A stretch of DNA of 64,000 bases from Chloroflexota bacterium. Its GTDB lineage: Bacteria > Chloroflexota > Anaerolineae > Anaerolineales > UBA11579. The stretch covers positions 1 to 64,000 of the forward strand of contig QWJF01000004.1 in NCBI GenBank assembly GCA_009391835.1. Direction: 5' to 3'. The position numbers and the translations under genes were made by a program. Positions 5,834 to 50,131 of the stretch are shown here, one piece after another; position 1 is the first letter of the stretch, and each line of letters starts with the position of its first letter. The notes below the pieces were generated by a model, which saw only the letters and a list, made by a program, of their open reading frames with translations, did no database searches and was not told the DNA's origin.

Positions 5834-5918
5834 GCCTGGGTTTTACCATAGCGCCCCACTTCGCACCGCGCTTTTGAAAAAGTTATCAGGTTGGCACGCG
5901 TCTTGCACATTAAGAGGC

Positions 5919-6959
5919 ATGATGCGCGTAATCCCATTCAACCCCGAACGATTGGGCATCCACTATTTCACGGACGCCGAGTATTACACCACCGAAGCAC
6001 TCAGCCGATGGCTACCCCGGATCAAGAGTCTGGGTTTCCGTTGGCTGACACTGCGCGCCCCGGAGACGCGCTCCATCCCTGAGGATTTTCTGGAGATGCT
6101 GCACGCGGCCAATTTACGGCCCATTGTTCATTTGCCGCTCTCGCTTAAAAACCCGCCTTCGGCAGACGAAGTGCAATCCATGCTCAACGCCTACGCCAAT
6201 TGGGGTGTGCGCTATGTGGCCTTCTTTGACCGCCCCAACCTGCGCAGCCGCTGGCCCGATACCGGCTGGACGCAGCGCGGCCTCGTGGAGCGCTTCTTGA
6301 ACGTTTTCAGCCCATTGGCAGAAGCCGCGATTGACGCTGGGCTGAGCCCTGTGTTTCCGCCGCTTGAGCCGGGCGGTGATTATTGGGATACCGCCTTTTT
6401 GCGAGCGGCACTGGAGCAAATGGCAGAGCGCAGCGAAGACATGATCCGGGACCATTTGACAATCGGTGCTTATGCCTGGGCCGATCACAAGGAATTGGAT
6501 TGGGGCATCGGCGGCCCAGAAAACTGGCCTGCCACCTTACCCTATCAAACACCAGAAGGCAGCCAGGACCAGCGCGGCTTCCGCATCTTCGATTGGTATA
6601 ACGCGATTTCCAGCGCCACGGTGGGCCGACATCTACCCATGATAATTTTGGGTGCTGGAGAGGCTGCCGATGCAGCGCAGACTGCCAACATCCCCAGTGG
6701 GCGCAACGTAGCGATGGCCAAGCAGGCCGCGCTGTTCCCGACTGAACAATCCCGCGCCGGGATGCCAGACAACGTGCTGGCCTGCAATTTTTGGCTGCTG
6801 GCAGCCAACGAAGGGCGCGCCGAGACGGCGCGCGGCTGGTTTGACGCTGATGGACGACCGCGCCCGGTGGTAGCCCAATGGCTGGCCTGGAAACAGGGCC
6901 AGGGCACACCCGCAGCGCGTATCAATGGCACGCAAGTTGCTCCAGGATTAACTAGCTAA
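5919..6959 (+). CDS. Hypothetical protein, possible glycoside-hydrolase-like TIM barrel
   Basis: Long ORF starting MMRVIPFNPERLGIHYFTDAEYYTTEALSRWLPRIKSLGFRWLTLRAP; family not securely recognised. Confidence 0.55.
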   Translation: MMRVIPFNPERLGIHYFTDAEYYTTEALSRWLPRIKSLGFRWLTLRAPETRSIPEDFLEMLHAANLRPIVHLPLSLKNPPSADEVQSMLNAYANWGVRYVAFFDRPNLRSRWPDTGWTQRGLVERFLNVFSPLAEAAIDAGLSPVFPPLEPGGDYWDTAFLRAALEQMAERSEDMIRDHLTIGAYAWADHKELDWGIGGPENWPATLPYQTPEGSQDQRGFRIFDWYNAISSATVGRHLPMIILGAGEAADAAQTANIPSGRNVAMAKQAALFPTEQSRAGMPDNVLACNFWLLAANEGRAETARGWFDADGRPRPVVAQWLAWKQGQGTPAARINGTQVAPGLTS

Positions 6960-7005
6960 CCAATGCCCAGTCGCTGCAAAGGCGAAATGGCAAAAGAGGT
7001 GCAGC

Positions 7006-8340
7006 ATGGAAATTTTTGAACCCGTCCCCGAAAATCAATTTACAGAAAACAAAGGCGAAGCGACCCCTGATATGCAGGTGCCGGAAGCACCGCACATGGA
7101 TATTGACAACCCGATCCATGGGGAGCCGATCATTGAGGCACCAATTGCCGAGGTCGCTCCGCTAGCTGCACCCCCGGTGGGACCTGTGCTCAAGGTACTG
7201 GGCCTGGGCGGCGGTGGAAGCAACGCCGTTGACCGCATGATCGAGTTGGGTGTGGAGGGCGTGGAATTTATTGCCGCCAACACCGACCATCAATCCCTGG
7301 CAAAAAGCCTGGCTCCCGTCAAAGTGCAGCTGGGGCCCCAACTGACCCGCGGGCTGGGCGCCGGTGGCGATCCCGAGGTGGGCTACGCGGCTGCAAAAGA
7401 GAGCCGCGCCGAATTGGAAGCCGCCCTACGCGGCGCAGACATGGTGTTCCTGACTGCGGGCATGGGCGGCGGCACCGGCACCGGTGCCATCGCGGTAGCC
7501 AGCGAGGTGGCGCGCGCCGTGGGCGCAGTGACCATCGCGGTAGTGACCACGCCATTCGGCTTTGAAATGGGCAAACGGCAGCAGAACGCTCAAAAGGGAC
7601 TCGCCCGCTTACAGCCGCACACCGATACATTAATTGCGATTCCCAACGACCGGCTGCTCTACGTGGCGCCACACGATCTTCCGATTGATGTGGCCTTCCG
7701 CATGGCGGACGACGTGCTGCGCCAATCGGTGCAGGGGATCGCCGAACTGGTCACCCAACCCGGATTGATCAACGTAGATTTTGCCCACGTACGCAACATG
7801 ATGAAACGCGGAGGCGGGGCACTGATGGCTATCGGCCACGGCCAGGGCGAAGAGAAAACCTTCCATGCCATCCAGCAAGCGCTCAACCATCCGCTGCTTG
7901 AAAGCATCTCGCTGAAAGACGCAGCCGGCGTTATCTGTAACTTCAGTGGCGGCCAAGACCTGAGCCTATACGAAGTGGGCGAGGCAATCAGCCACATCCG
8001 TGAGTTGACCGGCGACGACGTTGAAGTGGTGATGGGGCTTACTAGCGACGATCGCATGGAAGACCGCGCCCAGGTGATTCTGATCATCACCGGGCTGGGC
8101 GCCAACGCGCTCAAGGACCTGGTACCCGATGACGAGCTGGATCCTTATGGCAAGCAAGCGGTCATGGAAGCAGATGATGAATTGAACGTGACTGACACCC
8201 TGGAAGATACGGAACCAGCCATCACGCGGGTAGATCTGCAATCAGAGCGCATGCCGGCAGCAGCGCTCAACAATCTGGATATCCCGGCTTTCCTGCGCAA
8301 ACGGGCCCGTGCGGGCCTAGCGCGTGAAGGCCAGAATTAA
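7006..8340 (+). CDS. ftsZ: Cell division protein FtsZ (variant T7 loop)
   Basis: GGGTGTG tubulin signature, LGLGGGGSNAVDRM, C-terminal peptide LDIPAFLRKRA. Confidence 0.93.
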   Translation: MEIFEPVPENQFTENKGEATPDMQVPEAPHMDIDNPIHGEPIIEAPIAEVAPLAAPPVGPVLKVLGLGGGGSNAVDRMIELGVEGVEFIAANTDHQSLAKSLAPVKVQLGPQLTRGLGAGGDPEVGYAAAKESRAELEAALRGADMVFLTAGMGGGTGTGAIAVASEVARAVGAVTIAVVTTPFGFEMGKRQQNAQKGLARLQPHTDTLIAIPNDRLLYVAPHDLPIDVAFRMADDVLRQSVQGIAELVTQPGLINVDFAHVRNMMKRGGGALMAIGHGQGEEKTFHAIQQALNHPLLESISLKDAAGVICNFSGGQDLSLYEVGEAISHIRELTGDDVEVVMGLTSDDRMEDRAQVILIITGLGANALKDLVPDDELDPYGKQAVMEADDELNVTDTLEDTEPAITRVDLQSERMPAAALNNLDIPAFLRKRARAGLAREGQN

Positions 8341-41772: not shown

Positions 41773-41865
41773 TTAGCGTTGAACTGGCTAAAACCCCAAA
41801 ATTTGCGCTTTCGGCACGCTTCTTGCACCCTGTAGACTAAATCTTGACCAACTAAGGAGACAGTA

Positions 41866-42198
41866 ATGTACGCAATCAATTTACCAGACACCCTGCTTGC
41901 AATGGCCGCCGCCCTGTTTTTACTAGGGGCAGTAAGCCTGGTTTTGGGCGTTTTTGTGCTGATCACACGCGTAATGAACCGCGAAATCAGCACTCTGACG
42001 GCCCAGACGGCCAAACTGGCCCGCAAGGGCATCACCGAGGATATGTCCGGCCTGGTCAGCAACGCCTCGACACTGCTGACGTCAATGACTCAGATGGTCC
42101 GCACCGCCGCCGGCATTGGTATCTTCCTGACCTCACTCGGTCTGGGAATGATGGCTGCCGGTTACTGGATGGTGCTGCAGATTAGCTGGCCCCTCTAA
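41866..42198 (+). CDS. Small membrane protein
   Basis: Two hydrophobic segments; AAGGAGAC SD upstream; 18-nt gap to the next CDS. Confidence 0.6.
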   Translation: MYAINLPDTLLAMAAALFLLGAVSLVLGVFVLITRVMNREISTLTAQTAKLARKGITEDMSGLVSNASTLLTSMTQMVRTAAGIGIFLTSLGLGMMAAGYWMVLQISWPL

Positions 42199-42216: not shown

Positions 42217-45200
42217 ATGACCTCTTTCATCGCCCAGCTAAAAGCCCAACTCGAACAGGCCGATTGGCCTGTAGTGGTGGTTGCTCTGCGTAGTGAAAAC
42301 CGCCTATGGGCTAAGCTGGCAGATACCGACTTTGGCACCCGCGCCCTGGAAGCCGTCGGCAGCGAAACTATTCGCTGGTCGCCCGGATTTTTGGGTTTGC
42401 TCAGCCTTGAGCAGGATGCCCATTTCGGCGACTTGCGCGCCATGCCGTTCAAGCCGGTCAGTGAAAAACTGCGCTACGAGGCCGGCAGCGTCTATGAAGC
42501 GCTCGCCGCGCAGGCACAAACCGATGAAGAGACCTCACACCCACGAATCGAAAGTCCTGATCTGGAGCAAGCCACCTGGCTAGCCCTGGCCCTGCGCGAA
42601 CGCTTTCGCCTGACGGGTTCATGGGATACATTGTCCAAGGATCTGGCAATTGCGCCGCCCGCTTATTGGCGCTTACCGCTGGCCTGCCTGATTGGTCTGC
42701 TACCCGAGCCCCAGAATTTACTCAAGGCCCTCCTCGCAGAACAATCGTCCCGTGAATTGCACCAGGTCGTTTTGCAGGCCTTGCTCGCGAATCCCGCCAG
42801 CCCCGAGCAGCAATTTGCCTTGCTCGTGGATGCGGTCGGCGACGCCGGGCTTGCACAGTGGTCCGGCTTGCTGCGCGCCATCTCCGCGCAGCGCAGCGAT
42901 CTGGCTAAACTCCTCGCGGCCCATGCTTTGGCCAATCTGCCTGAACAGATCGGCGAAGTCGAGCGCCTCGACCAGCTCGAAGCGCTAATGCAGCAATCGG
43001 AAATTCTGCAATTGGGCGGCCAACACGAAGAAGCCCTACCCCTACTTAGTGCAGCCTGGGAAGCCGCTCAACGCTTCCAAGTCGGCCTGGCGGCCAAGCT
43101 GGCTGAATCCGCGGCCCACAACAAGGGCAGCATCACCGGGGCCACCGCTCTAGAACAGGTCACCCAGGTGGGGATCAACTTAACTCCCGGCAAATCATTG
43201 GATAGCGCTTCCAGTGGCAAACATCCCGCTTCCCTCGTCGCTGCCGGCCGCGTTGCCTACAGGAATGGCGATATTGATGAAGCCCAGATGATGGCCAACG
43301 CCGCGCTACGTGCCGCGCAGGCGGACAATCCTACCCAGGACACTGCGACCTCTACAGAAGTTTTGCACGACCTGATTCAATTATTTCTTGATATCCAATT
43401 GCCAGATGAAGCGCTCTCCGCGGCGGAATTCGCCACCCAGCGCCACTCAGAAGATGGGCGCGCCGCCTTTCTGCTGAGCCAGGCCCAATCTGCGGCCAAC
43501 CAACCCGACGCGGCATTGCAATCCGCACATCTGGCGGTGGCCCTTGCCCCGGATGAGCCCGATTTTTTGCGCCATTTGGCGCGTGACCTGCAGGCCTCTG
43601 GCCAAAACGCCGAAGCCTATCAGGAATGGCAGCACCTGATTGCCCAGTTCGAAGAACCCACACCTGAGGATCTCCTCTCCCTGGCTGAATGCGCCCTCCT
43701 CAATGGGGACGCAAAACGCAGCGCGGCCACATGCCGCACTCTGATCGTGGACGAACCCGAGAACGCCCTTGCACACCAGTGGCTGGGCAAAGCGCTGCTA
43801 GCCACTGGCGATAAGACCGGCATGGATCATTTGCGCGTGGCCATTGATTTCGATACCAACTTAATCGACGCGTGGCTAACGCTGGCCACCTATGAACATG
43901 AGCAGGGCAATCCGGATGCCGCGCTCGCAACACTGTTGGGCGCCGAGAAAGCCGTCCCAGACACCAGCGTAATCTACTCTAAGAAGGCTGCCGTTTACCG
44001 CAACTTAAATCATCCCGATGATGCATTGATCGCCCTGCGACGTGCGCACACGCTGGAGGCCGACAGCCAAGCCCGCACGGATCTGGCTCTCAAACTCAGC
44101 CTATTTGAGATCGAACTTGGTTTGCTGGAAGATGCCGAACACACACTGGAGCAGGCCCACCAGACCAGCAGCGCCAACGCGGAGATTGCCTTCCATTACG
44201 GTGAATTGTTGCTACACCGCGGCAAGGCCGAAAGCGCTATCTCGCCCCTCAGCGTGGCACAGGCCGCTCGACCGAATCACACGGAAGCTAGTATTCGCCT
44301 GGCCGAGGCTTATCTGGCCGCGGGCTTAAACCTCAATGAAGTCGAAGCCCTATTGGAAAGCGCGCTCGCGTTGGATGGCAAGCACGGCCCGGCTCAGGTA
44401 CTCCTGGCCGAAGCCCAGGTAGCCACCGGCCAGCACAATAAGGCCCGCAAAAGCCTGGATGCTCTGGCTCGCTCTCCCATCAATGAAGAACCCGAGTGGC
44501 ACAAGCGTCTCACATTGGCAAAGGCCATCATTGAAACCAATTCCGGCAATCCCGCCGAAGCTATACGGCAACTGGAATCCCTGGAAAAGGGACTGACGAA
44601 GGATCTGGATGTGCTGGACGCATTATGCACAGCCTATCGCCAAGCCGGACGCGGCGACGAAGCCTTCCAGATTGCACACCAGGTGTATTTGAGCGGCGGG
44701 CAGGATCAGCGTACATTGCTCTGGTACAGCCATCAGGCGGAAGCCGCCAATAAGCTGGACGAAGCCGTGATGGCGCTCAACAAGGTCGTGGACGATGGCC
44801 AGCCCTCCCCGGATCTCTTGCTGCGTCTCGCCGAATTGGAATGGACATCCGGGAAGCAAGCCGCGGCCCGCGATACGCTCTCCACATTATTTGCCCTCGA
44901 TCCAATCAAAGTAGCCGCCCTGGAACGTGCCGCAAATTTTCTGCGCGCCCAAGATGCGGATAAAGAAGCCATCCGCTACCTGGAAGTTGCGATTGAACTA
45001 AGCCAAGCCGAAAACCCCAGCCTCTTCCAGCAACTCAGCGACGCCTTGAACGCATGCAGCCAATCTGAAAAAGCGTTGGAGGCCATAGAAAAGAGTGTTG
45101 TTCTGGCGCCCAACAACCCCGGTTATCTGGTGAGCAAGGCGGCTCTACTCCAGCAAATCGGCCGCCCCCAAACTGCCATCCAAACACTGGATCAGGCCCT

Positions 45201-47436
45201 CGCATTGCTGCCTCAGGATGCCGAGCTGCTGTCTGGCAAAGCCCGCCTCCTGGCGGCCGAACAGGATTGGGCCAGTGCCCTGGATGCTGTGGAAGTTGCC
45301 ATTGCCCAGGATGTAGGCAATCCCGAATTGCTGGCTTTCGCAGCCAATTTGGCCGCCGACCATTTACAACCCGAACGCGCCCGCGCCCTGATTGCCGCAG
45401 GCAGCCAACTCGCAAAAACATTTGAAATCGCTTGCCTTGATGTTGAACTGTCATTGGATCTGGGCGCAGGCGTAGAAGCCGCAAAGGCGCTGGCTTCATT
45501 AATCGAAAGCCAGCCCGAGCATGCCCGCATCCTGGCGCTGCAAGCCACGCTGGCGATTGACAAGAGGGATGCCTCAGGCGCGGAACAGTTGTATAAGAAA
45601 GCACTCAAAGTGCTCGGCACGTTGAGTGCTTCCGAGAAAAACACGCAGGAATATGCGGCCACGCTCTATTCAATTGCCCAGGCGTCCCTGGCCACCCGTC
45701 ATTGGGAGAGCGCACTGGATCTATTCGGGCAAGTGGCAGCCGCTCAGCCGCACAATGCGCGCCCCCAGCTTGGATTGACCAAAACCTATGTTTTGCGGGC
45801 AGAGTTCTACCAACTGTGCCAGGCCACGCAGGTCATTGAACATCTCCCCGCAGACACGGCGGTCACCAAGAAATGCCACAAGGCCGCGATCTTTGCCCTG
45901 AAAGCCGCACACACGCTGACACCCTTTGTCGCCGCCCAAGCCGAACTGCTTGGTTGGAAATCGCGCGCCAACCTGCGCTTTGATCCGGCATCAGAGTTTG
46001 ACCCCGGGACGGATAAATTCCCCCGCAGCGGCCCGGAGGCTGCCGCTCTAGCTTATGCCGCTCGCTTGCAGGGCCATACAGATCAGGTCAAGGAATTGCT
46101 CAAGCAGTTTCCAAGATCGCATGAAATGCTGGTCCAGTTTGCGCTCGCCCGCCAGGCTGAGGATGCGGAAGAGGCACTCAGCGCCGTCAAATTGGCCGCC
46201 AAATTGGCCCCCCAGGAGATCCCTCAACACGCCCTGCTGGCTTCGATTGCGCATGCCGCCGGCGATCTGGAAGTTGCGCTGCATGCCATTGAACACGCAC
46301 TCATATTCTGGCCGGAAGAGGCCCGCTGGCATGCCCTGGCCGCCGATATTTTCACACAGCGCGAGGATTTCGCTTCCGCCGAGCACCACGCACAGCAGGC
46401 CGCCCAACTTGAGGAAAATTACGCCGAGCACCACGTGGTGCTCGGAGAATTACACATGGCTAAAGGCGCGTATGCCTCAGCCGCCGCCGCGCTGGATAAA
46501 GCGGGTGAACTCGCTCGCCATCGTGAGGATTATTGGCTGGAAGCCGCTCGCGCCCATTTGCTCAACAACAACTTTGACACTGCCGAACAGCGCGCCAAGC
46601 AAGCGGAAAAAATCAACCCGGGCAACCTCATGGCTTTTCTGGCTCAAGTAGAGATTGCTTTGAAGCGCGGCCTGGCCGAAAAGGCTGCCGAGTTGCTTGA
46701 GCCCGTATTAGAGCAGGCCCCTGACGAATTGGATGCCCTCCGTTTATGGGCAGAAACGCTCTTTGCCCTCGGCCACACCAAAGAAGCTCTCGCCATCCTG
46801 GAGCGTGGTCGCCAACAGGCCGATGAGCCGATCCCTTGGTTGATCCGTCGCGCCCAAATGCTCCCCCATGTGGAGGGGCTCGGCAGCGACCTCCACGCGC
46901 TGCAACAACTGGATCAGCAACATCCGGAAAACGCATCCATCTTGCTGGCGCTTTCCCAGGCCCAGGCAGAAGCCGGCGATCTAAAGACCGCCATTTATTC
47001 CGCCCAGCAAGCCCTGAAACATGCGCGCCAATTGCCCCTGATCCAGCAAGCCCGCCTGGCCATTCACCTGGGCAGACTGTTGAAACTCAACGGGCAGTTG
47101 GACCAATCCTTGCATCAGTTGGATGAAGCCGCCAAACTGGCCGACCATCTGGTGGATATCCATCTTGAGCGCGGTGAGGTTTTCCTCGCTCGCCGCCAAC
47201 ATACTGAGGCGCTGAAGGCTTTTGAACTCGCCGCGCAAGTAGCGCCCAGCGATCCGAAGCCGCATTTGCAAGCCGCTCAGGCTCTGAAAGAAGTCAAGGA
47301 TTACGCCGGCGCCGAAAAGGGCTTGCGCAAAGCCGCGGAACTCTCTCCCAAGGATCGCTCCGTTCAACGCCAATTGGCCGCCGTCATGGCGCTAAATTTG
47401 GTTCACCACTCGCAGGAAATAGGTACGCAATCATGA
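42217..47436 (+). CDS. Very large tetratricopeptide-repeat protein (1739 aa)
   Basis: Many degenerate TPR units (e.g. AHQWLGKALLATGDKTGMDHLRVAIDFDTNLIDAWLTLATYEHEQGNPDAALATLLGAEKAVPD) after an unrecognised N-terminal region of about 250 aa. Confidence 0.85.
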   Translation: MTSFIAQLKAQLEQADWPVVVVALRSENRLWAKLADTDFGTRALEAVGSETIRWSPGFLGLLSLEQDAHFGDLRAMPFKPVSEKLRYEAGSVYEALAAQAQTDEETSHPRIESPDLEQATWLALALRERFRLTGSWDTLSKDLAIAPPAYWRLPLACLIGLLPEPQNLLKALLAEQSSRELHQVVLQALLANPASPEQQFALLVDAVGDAGLAQWSGLLRAISAQRSDLAKLLAAHALANLPEQIGEVERLDQLEALMQQSEILQLGGQHEEALPLLSAAWEAAQRFQVGLAAKLAESAAHNKGSITGATALEQVTQVGINLTPGKSLDSASSGKHPASLVAAGRVAYRNGDIDEAQMMANAALRAAQADNPTQDTATSTEVLHDLIQLFLDIQLPDEALSAAEFATQRHSEDGRAAFLLSQAQSAANQPDAALQSAHLAVALAPDEPDFLRHLARDLQASGQNAEAYQEWQHLIAQFEEPTPEDLLSLAECALLNGDAKRSAATCRTLIVDEPENALAHQWLGKALLATGDKTGMDHLRVAIDFDTNLIDAWLTLATYEHEQGNPDAALATLLGAEKAVPDTSVIYSKKAAVYRNLNHPDDALIALRRAHTLEADSQARTDLALKLSLFEIELGLLEDAEHTLEQAHQTSSANAEIAFHYGELLLHRGKAESAISPLSVAQAARPNHTEASIRLAEAYLAAGLNLNEVEALLESALALDGKHGPAQVLLAEAQVATGQHNKARKSLDALARSPINEEPEWHKRLTLAKAIIETNSGNPAEAIRQLESLEKGLTKDLDVLDALCTAYRQAGRGDEAFQIAHQVYLSGGQDQRTLLWYSHQAEAANKLDEAVMALNKVVDDGQPSPDLLLRLAELEWTSGKQAAARDTLSTLFALDPIKVAALERAANFLRAQDADKEAIRYLEVAIELSQAENPSLFQQLSDALNACSQSEKALEAIEKSVVLAPNNPGYLVSKAALLQQIGRPQTAIQTLDQALALLPQDAELLSGKARLLAAEQDWASALDAVEVAIAQDVGNPELLAFAANLAADHLQPERARALIAAGSQLAKTFEIACLDVELSLDLGAGVEAAKALASLIESQPEHARILALQATLAIDKRDASGAEQLYKKALKVLGTLSASEKNTQEYAATLYSIAQASLATRHWESALDLFGQVAAAQPHNARPQLGLTKTYVLRAEFYQLCQATQVIEHLPADTAVTKKCHKAAIFALKAAHTLTPFVAAQAELLGWKSRANLRFDPASEFDPGTDKFPRSGPEAAALAYAARLQGHTDQVKELLKQFPRSHEMLVQFALARQAEDAEEALSAVKLAAKLAPQEIPQHALLASIAHAAGDLEVALHAIEHALIFWPEEARWHALAADIFTQREDFASAEHHAQQAAQLEENYAEHHVVLGELHMAKGAYASAAAALDKAGELARHREDYWLEAARAHLLNNNFDTAEQRAKQAEKINPGNLMAFLAQVEIALKRGLAEKAAELLEPVLEQAPDELDALRLWAETLFALGHTKEALAILERGRQQADEPIPWLIRRAQMLPHVEGLGSDLHALQQLDQQHPENASILLALSQAQAEAGDLKTAIYSAQQALKHARQLPLIQQARLAIHLGRLLKLNGQLDQSLHQLDEAAKLADHLVDIHLERGEVFLARRQHTEALKAFELAAQVAPSDPKPHLQAAQALKEVKDYAGAEKGLRKAAELSPKDRSVQRQLAAVMALNLVHHSQEIGTQS

Positions 47437-50036
47437 GCACACATCTAAAAGAAATCGCTGCTGGGAAATCCCTCGACCGCTCCGAAATTCTCACCTTGCT
47501 GCAAGTCGCATTGCAGGCGGGCGAGGAGCGCTTTGTGCGCGAGCTGGCCGAAGATTGGCTGGATGCCTACCCCTACGATCTCCCCGTCGAGCTGCTGCGC
47601 GCCCACGCCCTGATCCAACAAACCAAGTCCCAGAAAGCCTTGGGCCTGCTGCTGCGCATCACCAAACTGGACCCCGAGTTCTACGAAGCTCAGGACCTAC
47701 TGGCCCGCCTCGCCCGCCGCGTGCAGCCCCAAATTGCTGAAAGTGCCCGCGCGGCTGCAGTGGTAGTAAGCCGACCCCAGGCAGTACCCAACGATATTGA
47801 GGAATGGGGCCGCGCACTGATACAGGGACAGCTGGCCCTCAAAAAGGACGATCTCAATGAGGCTGAAACACACATCCAGACCGCACTGCTCGCAAAACCG
47901 CCCTCTCCCCTGCCCGGTCTCATGCATGTTCAGTTGGCTCGCCTGCAGGATATGAGCTGGCTGGCTGTTCGCAAACTGATTGAACTCTATCGCCAGCAAT
48001 GGCCGCATGCCCTGCAATTTCAATTGATGCTAGCCGAGCAACTTATCGAAAGCGGTCAGGAAGATGAAGCTGTAGACATTTTGCACCAATGTGTGGCCGA
48101 AGATGTTACCGGCCAGGTGGCGCGCCGCTTGTGGGGCGAGGAGCATCGCTTCAGCGCGCTGTGGCCCCGCAGCCTACACCGCGCCGTGCGCATTGCTATC
48201 CCGGCAAAGGTGGCCGCCGGCATGGGTTGGAACCATCTATCCGAGGGCCTGGTGATCGCCGCGGCCAGTATGAACAATGGTAAATCGGCGCCGGATGTTG
48301 ACAACGAGACGCAAGTTTCGCCCGACTCTCTTGAAGACGGGCAACCGGAAGCCAGCGCGCATGCCTACGAATCCAGCCCGCTGGGCAATGCGCCTGAAAC
48401 CCCATTGGATATTGACGAACTCACCACCCAAAACGAAGAGGATTTGCAATTGCGCGCTGATGGACGCAATCCCAGCTACGTGATCCTGAGCACTAGGGTC
48501 GGCCTCGAAAAACAGTATGGCTTTGAAGGCGCGCGTGCTATCGAAACCGCAATGATGGCTGTTGTCGCCACCACGGCGGCAAATCCCAGTTGGAGCGCCT
48601 GTATGGTCTACGCCGACGACAAGAACTCGCTCTCGCCGTACGGCCTGGAATCCGTCGCCGCCAATGATCCCTGGGCCATTAAATTGTTGCTCGCCGACTT
48701 GGACGAGGCCCTACGCGCTAAAGGTGAAATGATCGGCGCGGTGCTCATCGTGGGCGGACCCAAAGTGGTGCCCTTCCACCGCCTGCCCAACCCGGTCGAT
48801 GATGAAGACAAGGACGTCGCTTCAGACAATCCCTATGGCAGCATTGACGAAAATTATTTCGTACCCTCCTGGCCGCTGGGCCGGCTGCCCGGCACTACCA
48901 CCGATCACTCCTCGCTGGTCAAAGCCCTGAACCGTATCGCAGCCAGCCGCGCAAATGCGCCGCTCACCAGCCAGGCGATTGGTTTGCTGGCTCGACTGTT
49001 GAGCCTGTTCAACCTATGGAAACCAAAACGCAAGACATTTGGCTATTCCGCTGAAATTTGGCAGCGTGCCTCCCACTCCGTGTATCGTCCGATTGGTGAG
49101 CCGCGCAAGTTGAGCATCTCCCCACCCACCGAAACCGGCCGTCTGCCCAAAGCCGCCAGCACACCGCTGCAACTCGCCTATTTCAACCTGCACGGAATTG
49201 AGGATGGCCCGGATTGGTATGGTCAGCGCGACCCACTTGAGAGCCCCGCGGGACCGGACTATCCGGTGGCGCTCACACCCAAGGACGTCATCAACAGTGG
49301 TCGCGCCCCTCAAATCGTGTTCTCTGAGGCCTGCTTTGGCGCCAACATCGCCGGAAAAACCGCGGAAACCGCGCTGGCCCTCAAATTCCTCGAATCGGGC
49401 AGCAAGGCCGTCGTCGGTTCCACCTGCACCTCCTACGGTTCCGTCAAGACCCCGCTCATCGCTGCCGATTTGCTTGGCCAAACTTTTTGGAAGCTGCTCA
49501 ACGAAGGCCACCCGGTGGGCGAAGCCCTGCGCCGTGCCAAAATTGCGCTCGCTCGCTCCATGCACCGCCGCCAGGGCTACCTGGATGGCGAAGACCAGAA
49601 GACGCTCATCTCATTCCTGCTCTACGGCGATCCGCTTGCGGTTGCCAGCGCCACCGGTTCCGTGCCCAAGGGCATTATGCGCCCCGCGCTCGACTCAGAG
49701 GAAATGCTGGCCGTCTGCGACAAAGCCGAAAAATCGATGAGTGCCCCGCAGGATATTCCCGCCCAAACGCTGGCCACAGTGAAATCCATCGTGCAGGAAT
49801 ATCTGCCCGGCATGCTGGAGAGCAGCATGCAACTCAGCCACGAGCATCTCAACTGCCAGGGCCACAATTGCCCGTTGCCCCACGGCCGCGCCAAAGCGCT
49901 GCCCGGTCTAGCGCCCAATCGCCAACTCGTCACGCTCAGCAAAAACGTCAAATCTGGCAATCGCCAGCATCCCAGCTATGCGCGCATCACGATGGACGCC
50001 CACGGGAAAGTTGTCAAGCTGGCCGTTTCGCGCTAA
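47433..50036 (+). CDS. Clan-CD Cys-His protease-like protein (C25/CHAT-like) with N-terminal TPR-like region
   Basis: Predicted dyad His587 (YFNLHGIEDG, codon 49191-49193) and Cys634 (IVFSEACFGANI, codon 49332-49334). ATGA overlap with the TPR gene. Confidence 0.75.
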   Translation: MSTHLKEIAAGKSLDRSEILTLLQVALQAGEERFVRELAEDWLDAYPYDLPVELLRAHALIQQTKSQKALGLLLRITKLDPEFYEAQDLLARLARRVQPQIAESARAAAVVVSRPQAVPNDIEEWGRALIQGQLALKKDDLNEAETHIQTALLAKPPSPLPGLMHVQLARLQDMSWLAVRKLIELYRQQWPHALQFQLMLAEQLIESGQEDEAVDILHQCVAEDVTGQVARRLWGEEHRFSALWPRSLHRAVRIAIPAKVAAGMGWNHLSEGLVIAAASMNNGKSAPDVDNETQVSPDSLEDGQPEASAHAYESSPLGNAPETPLDIDELTTQNEEDLQLRADGRNPSYVILSTRVGLEKQYGFEGARAIETAMMAVVATTAANPSWSACMVYADDKNSLSPYGLESVAANDPWAIKLLLADLDEALRAKGEMIGAVLIVGGPKVVPFHRLPNPVDDEDKDVASDNPYGSIDENYFVPSWPLGRLPGTTTDHSSLVKALNRIAASRANAPLTSQAIGLLARLLSLFNLWKPKRKTFGYSAEIWQRASHSVYRPIGEPRKLSISPPTETGRLPKAASTPLQLAYFNLHGIEDGPDWYGQRDPLESPAGPDYPVALTPKDVINSGRAPQIVFSEACFGANIAGKTAETALALKFLESGSKAVVGSTCTSYGSVKTPLIAADLLGQTFWKLLNEGHPVGEALRRAKIALARSMHRRQGYLDGEDQKTLISFLLYGDPLAVASATGSVPKGIMRPALDSEEMLAVCDKAEKSMSAPQDIPAQTLATVKSIVQEYLPGMLESSMQLSHEHLNCQGHNCPLPHGRAKALPGLAPNRQLVTLSKNVKSGNRQHPSYARITMDAHGKVVKLAVSR

Positions 50037-50051
50037 CCCAAACCCATTTAC

Positions 50052-50087
50052 AAAAAACCCTGCGTTGATTCTTTCGCAGGGTTTTTT
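50052..50087 (+). terminator. Intrinsic terminator of the TPR/protease operon
   Basis: AAAAAACCCTGCG-ttgattcttt-CGCAGGGTTTTTT. Confidence 0.85.
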
Positions 50088-50131
50088 GTTTTAACGCCAA
50101 GGATTTTCAATCATGCTAGAATCGCTTTCTT

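Follow-up and report, generated by a model that had tools for sequence, protein, structure and literature searches.

A small two-TM (2TM) membrane protein, a giant TPR protein and a C25-like clan-CD protease are encoded by three consecutive genes whose order is retained across several classes of Chloroflexota. In the order to which the analysed genome belongs, this trio is part of an apparent sigma-54 regulon together with a second FtsZ (FtsZ2), a putatively TIM-barrel-like protein (c3) and the division genes ftsL-ftsI. The reading that we favour, with a probability of roughly 0.55, is a membrane-anchored, TPR-gated protease acting within a sigma-54 division programme.

Layout and distribution of the trio

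The window, the whole 64,000-nt stretch of DNA analysed here, lies on contig 34 of a 1.68 Mb genome that is 83% complete. On its forward strand, a gene for a 110-aa 2TM protein that matches no known family (41866..42198) is followed, after 18 nt, by the gene of a 1,739-aa TPR superhelix (42217..47436), which shares 4 nt (ATGA) with the gene of the 867-aa protease (47433..50036). The trio ends at an intrinsic terminator (50050..50088, + strand), a 15-bp hairpin with a folding energy of -22.7 kcal/mol (z -6.9) that none of 200 shuffles equalled. A simple terminator scan misses this hairpin because its loop is 10 nt. The ORF coordinates, the 18-nt spacing, the overlap and the strong terminator are all present in the window as an earlier reading of the DNA from its sequence only had described them. 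Genes in homologous loci were called simply as the longest ORF, and some start sites are wrong; of 52 TPR-protease gene pairs, 20 overlapped by exactly 4 nt and 39 had a gap of no more than 20 nt. As part of our best explanation, the three genes probably form one operon.

Conservation of the trio across Chloroflexota, the lack of which the sequence-only reading had named as counting against it, was borne out by 60 fetched loci that, with the window, made a neighbourhood set of 61. The order 2TM, giant TPR and protease was complete in 51 of these, spanning several families and including other classes of the phylum, in which the TPR protein has 2,100-2,550 aa. Some of the ten incomplete loci are cut at a contig edge. 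One locus (L120) has an extra small TPR gene between the TPR and protease genes. At two others (L107 and L108, in G040 and G180), the 2TM gene is directly followed by the protease gene, with no giant TPR gene, and rpoN, kinase and regulator genes lie upstream. In family f14, a gene of about 497 aa follows the protease gene (L071, L074, L075, L077, L093 and L109); the L074 copy carries Beta-lactamase2 and PG_binding_4 domains, another envelope link.

Matches to the protease were found in 148 of 201 genomes of the order and in 32 of 400 across the phylum, most of them MAGs, in which absences are uncertain. The gene is mostly single-copy. Labelling the protease tree by its 13 family groups took 12 changes, the fewest possible; the tree therefore follows taxonomy, indicating vertical inheritance.

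A C25-like protease with a near-invariant dyad

The protease divides into a TPR region (residues ~1-240), an acidic linker (~280-340), a C25-like catalytic domain (~345-740) and a conserved C terminus. A clan-CD dyad had been claimed from the window sequence, and its conservation among homologues was confirmed. The predicted catalytic His587 (codon CAC, 49191..49193, + strand), in an NLHG motif, is present in 55 of 55 homologues, and the predicted catalytic Cys634 (codon TGC, 49332..49334, + strand), 47 residues away in an EAC[YF]G motif, in 54 of 55. This near-invariance argues for an active enzyme. The block GG..VPFH.LPNP.DD.D...SDNPY...DENYF.....GRLP is also strongly conserved over the 55 homologues. 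In one homologue (L116), EAGHA replaces EAC[YF]G and the Cys is lost, so this protein is likely inactive; no trio partners were found at its locus.

Searches of Pfam, NCBIfam, PADLOC and PDB with the window protease alone returned only TPRs and a sub-threshold CHAT match (18.1 bits versus a cut-off of 24, E 0.0019), and the protein lies below the Pfam cut-off for Peptidase_C25. Because these single-protein searches were uninformative, family assignment needed the homologue set. Peptidase_C25 (PF01364) matched 21 of the 55 homologues (best E 4e-17; L083 above the cut-off), whereas CHAT matched 3 of 55 at E<0.01. Of the C25/CHAT-like affinity proposed for this protein, the C25 half is thus supported and the CHAT half is not, and its family relationships identify it as a predicted C25-like clan-CD protein, nearer to gingipain than to CHAT. 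A profile of the catalytic domain had no match in PDB, and a full-length profile matched mainly through the TPR part. A structure model of the catalytic domain, built from two sequences only (the window and L002), reached a pLDDT of 33. A search of a viral collection yielded nothing beyond one stretch remotely similar to C25 (32% across about 120 aa), on an IMG/VR contig classed as viral (L230).

The N-terminal ~250 residues of the TPR protein matched no Pfam or NCBIfam family, in agreement with the sequence-only reading, which had recognised no family there. In an alignment of 44 homologues, this region retains only scattered conserved W/L positions. The most conserved stretch in the same alignment is the C-terminal ~130 residues, a candidate protease-binding surface. 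The 2TM protein has hydrophobic stretches at about residues 8-36 (TM1) and 81-108 (TM2), separated by a basic loop (37-80; 5 K/R and 3 D/E), a composition suggesting that the loop is cytoplasmic and could dock the TPR scaffold. The TPR protein may be the gate of the protease, and the 2TM protein may be its anchor or its target.

Sigma-54 genes and promoter sites accompany the trio

The recurrent neighbour families over the 61 loci were rpoN, a kinase, a regulator, c3 and an FtsZ. When neighbours were clustered, about 20 loci had the genes for RpoN, a PAS histidine kinase and an NtrC-type regulator immediately ahead of the trio, and c3, a protein of ~430 aa, and an FtsZ recurred downstream of it. 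In the window genome these genes are separated: positions 5919-8340 of the window contain c3 and FtsZ2, and rpoN (C7:26481-27902), the kinase and the regulator are adjacent on contig 7. The contig 7 regulator is the only strong Sigma54_activat match in the genome (E 1.6e-70), with two others near 1e-6 to 1e-8.

A predicted sigma-54 (-24/-12) promoter, CGGCACG-CTTC-TTGCA (41812..41827, + strand; one mismatch to TGGCACGNNNNTTGCW), stands 54 nt ahead of the ATG of the 2TM gene, with a predicted transcription start at about 41838. Exact consensus sites precede c3 (5892..5907, + strand) and FtsZ2 (6926..6941, + strand), and these are the only two perfect TGGCACGNNNNTTGCW sites in the window. In front of homologous 2TM genes, most sites fall about 50-54 nt upstream where the start is well placed. 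With up to two mismatches allowed, sites were found upstream of 25 of 41 2TM genes, 9 of 21 c3 genes, 10 of 17 rpoN genes and 4 of 17 FtsZ2 genes, compared with 0 of 42 for four neighbouring control genes and about 0.5-1% of shuffles.

Such sites are rare in the window genome as a whole, with nine matches to YGGCACGNNNNTTGC and one to the reversed pattern. Four of the nine are inside ORFs of unrelated genes, and the rest are located ahead of the trio, c3, FtsZ2, ftsL-ftsI and a lipoprotein gene. A wider pattern revealed a site before rpoN itself. It also revealed one before a long ORF of unknown nature on contig 23 (L205, G000:C23:31967). The lipoprotein gene (L133/L168, G000:C45:41511) encodes ~248 aa, has an exact site and is followed by a gene for a LysM lipoprotein, both possible further regulon members. 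The same five units (rpoN, the trio, c3, FtsZ2 and ftsL) have sites in front of them in G013, a genome that belongs to a different family.

The interval between mraW and ftsL carries a site in 17 of 24 genomes with rpoN and in 0 of 6 without it (Fisher p 0.003); the other 7 of the 24 have no ftsL site. Examples are 31568-31583 of contig 2 in the window genome (L229, G000:C2) and L159 and L174 in G156. Part of the division cluster may thus be sigma-54 driven in this order. Counts of the strict sigma-54 pattern alone did not separate genomes with rpoN from those without, but the position of sites relative to genes did. Judged by these sites, the operon, FtsZ2 and ftsL are predicted to be sigma-54 dependent in vivo. 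The idea of a stand-alone signalling or defence-type pair, implied in the sequence-only reading, is not supported: the module is vertically inherited, mostly single-copy, without a PADLOC match and, in this order, within an apparent sigma-54 regulon.

A second FtsZ is co-inherited with the protease

FtsZ2 (7006..8340, + strand; PF00091 at 7189-7665, E 3.5e-44) keeps the GTP-binding loop GGGTGTG and the C-terminal peptide NLDIPAFLRK, and its T7 loop, NVDFAH (7771-7788, + strand), has His261 in place of the second catalytic Asp. This Asp (E. coli D212) is lost in 30 of 31 FtsZ2 proteins, in which the loop reads N.DF.[H/N/A], and kept in 24 of 24 FtsZ1 or single FtsZ proteins. The C-terminal LD.PAF.R peptide of FtsZ2 is mostly kept. 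FtsZ2 is monophyletic across the order (support 100/100, 31 rows), and the window genome has an ordinary FtsZ1 in the dcw cluster on contig 2. In E. coli, the D212G substitution lowers FtsZ GTPase activity about tenfold or more and produces static rings (PMC7320174). By analogy, FtsZ2 may be a weakly hydrolysing co-polymer that stabilizes the Z ring.

The c3 gene (5919..6959, + strand) matches no Pfam family; in many other genomes, including some of other classes (L110, L111, L112 and L117), it immediately follows the gene for the protease. A weak single-sequence model (pLDDT 51) shows alternating beta-alpha units with TIM barrels as the best structural matches, so c3 is tentatively TIM-barrel-like.

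Over the 201 genomes of the order, the protease co-occurs with rpoN (135 with both, 13 with the protease only, 12 with rpoN only and 41 with neither; p 1e-20), with two FtsZ proteins (133, 15, 5 and 48, respectively; p 3e-27) and with c3 (140, 8, 9 and 44; p 4e-27), in Fisher tests that treat genomes as independent and make no correction for ancestry. Shared ancestry is partly behind the co-occurrence. Family f11 (25 genomes) lacks all four, and without it the p values are 4e-8 (rpoN), 2e-14 (two FtsZ) and 7e-13 (c3). Absences are found in f11, f6 and part of f12, a family with both states. In the subset of 118 genomes with a completeness of 90% or more, the protease, rpoN, two FtsZ and c3 are all present in 81, all absent in 31 and mixed in 6. 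Some genomes of other classes (G448, G217 and G353) encode the trio, sometimes with c3 adjacent, have a single FtsZ and lack a strong sigma-54 activator. The core function of the trio therefore needs neither FtsZ2 nor sigma-54, and its connection with division may have been gained within this order.

Proposed mechanism and alternative readings

In the membrane-anchored protease reading, the PAS kinase would sense a signal and switch the regulon on through the NtrC-type regulator encoded beside rpoN, and the operon would be transcribed by sigma-54 RNA polymerase in this Chloroflexota order. The 2TM protein would anchor a cytoplasmic protease complex at the membrane. In this complex, the giant TPR protein would act as scaffold and gate, and the C25-like (clan CD) cysteine endopeptidase would be the 867-aa protein, which has a TPR region of its own. 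The same circuit would drive the TIM-barrel-like protein, FtsZ2 and, within the division cluster, ftsL-ftsI. FtsZ2, predicted to bind GTP and barely hydrolyse it, would co-assemble with FtsZ1 and alter Z-ring dynamics, and the TPR-gated protease would cleave, at the membrane, a protein of the divisome or the envelope, an irreversible step with separase-like logic. In a more specific form, which we advance only tentatively, these Chloroflexota would have a cell-division programme dedicated to sigma-54, in which the two-component system and RpoN activate a hydrolysis-deficient FtsZ paralogue, ftsL-ftsI and a membrane-anchored, TPR-gated protease of gingipain type. Cleavage by this protease would set off a stage of cytokinesis or of cell separation, making it a bacterial analogue of separase in logic.

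Division genes could instead be one output of a sigma-54 stress, envelope or differentiation programme, with the protease as a developmental or stress switch acting on an envelope or regulatory protein and not on division itself. A published survey connects sigma-54 in general with the exterior of the cell and shows no enrichment of the cell division category (PMC3162934), and both the site before the lipoprotein and LysM gene pair of the window genome and the trios without FtsZ2 in other classes fit this account. We nevertheless consider it rather unlikely, as the conserved core of sites (rpoN, the trio, c3, FtsZ2 and ftsL) consists largely of division genes and FtsZ2 presence tracks the protease across the order.

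Vertical inheritance, near-universal presence in the order and the existence of the trio in members of other classes that lack a strong sigma-54 activator would also suit a general housekeeping protease, for example one for membrane-protein maturation, that shares sigma-54 control only through co-regulation of growth-linked genes. This is improbable given the all-or-none presence with rpoN, FtsZ2 and c3, and given that f11 genomes live without the entire set.

Finally, a TPR protein and clan-CD protease beside a small membrane protein resemble TPR-CHAT/Csx29 (PMC10028731, PMC9729208) and the conflict systems of multicellular bacteria (PMC7159879), but we rejected defence or programmed death like Craspase or caspase-gasdermin, with the 2TM protein as a pore-forming effector freed by cleavage, as very improbable on distribution and neighbours: PADLOC had no match for the TPR protein or protease and, for the 2TM protein, only 2TM_IV (E 0.049), no cas genes were seen among the recurrent neighbours of the 61 loci, and the protease tree is at the minimum of changes for family labels, with matches in most genomes of the order.

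Comparison with known systems

We found no paper on this system in the open-access PMC literature, the scope of our search, which leaves subscription papers outside. The system appears new, although C25-like proteases, TPR proteins, RpoN and FtsZ are each of known kinds. If the favoured reading is true, sigma-54 and a two-component system govern core division genes in a widespread group of environmental bacteria, and the genes co-regulated with these encode a clan-CD protease and a second FtsZ whose dynamics are predicted to be much reduced. It would provide a bacterial example of a caspase/gingipain-family protease in the cell cycle and would make a pathway open to experiment out of genes that are near-universal in the order yet unannotated.

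The protease shares with C25 enzymes of the gingipain type (PF01364) the His-Gly and Cys dyad and the conserved SDNPY...DENYF...GRLP block. It differs in that no secretion signal was seen, in its N-terminal TPR fusion and conserved C-terminal segment, and in being encoded in an apparent operon with TPR and 2TM proteins. Gingipains cleave with Arg or Lys at P1. With TPR-CHAT (Csx29) of the type III-E Craspase, the system has in common TPR repeats, a clan-CD protease and expected gating by a partner, but its catalytic domain is nearer to C25 than to CHAT, its inheritance is vertical, its genes have sigma-54 promoter sites, and Cas7-11 and Csx30 were not seen among the recurrent neighbours of the 61 loci. 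Separase is a clan-CD protease related to gingipain (PMC4626109), and the resemblance to the trio is one of working principle only: a protease joined to a long helical-repeat region that would act at a division step. Separase is eukaryotic, a single chain and directed at cohesin, and its homology to the trio protease is evident only at the level of the clan.

Some bacteria have a second or divergent FtsZ encoded away from the dcw cluster (PMC9871819), and plastids have FtsZ1/FtsZ2 pairs (PMC8142252). The pair described here is similar in having two paralogues, one of them outside the division cluster, and differs in that FtsZ2 lacks the T7-loop Asp, has sigma-54 sites upstream and is co-inherited with a protease module. 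RpoN, an NtrC-type activator and -24/-12 promoters are likewise familiar from published sigma-54 regulons, but the predicted core targets here include ftsL-ftsI and an ftsZ paralogue, in contrast to a survey without division enrichment (PMC3162934). Collectively, the apparent co-control of the trio with an altered FtsZ and core division genes suggests an undescribed, protease-containing programme of cell division.
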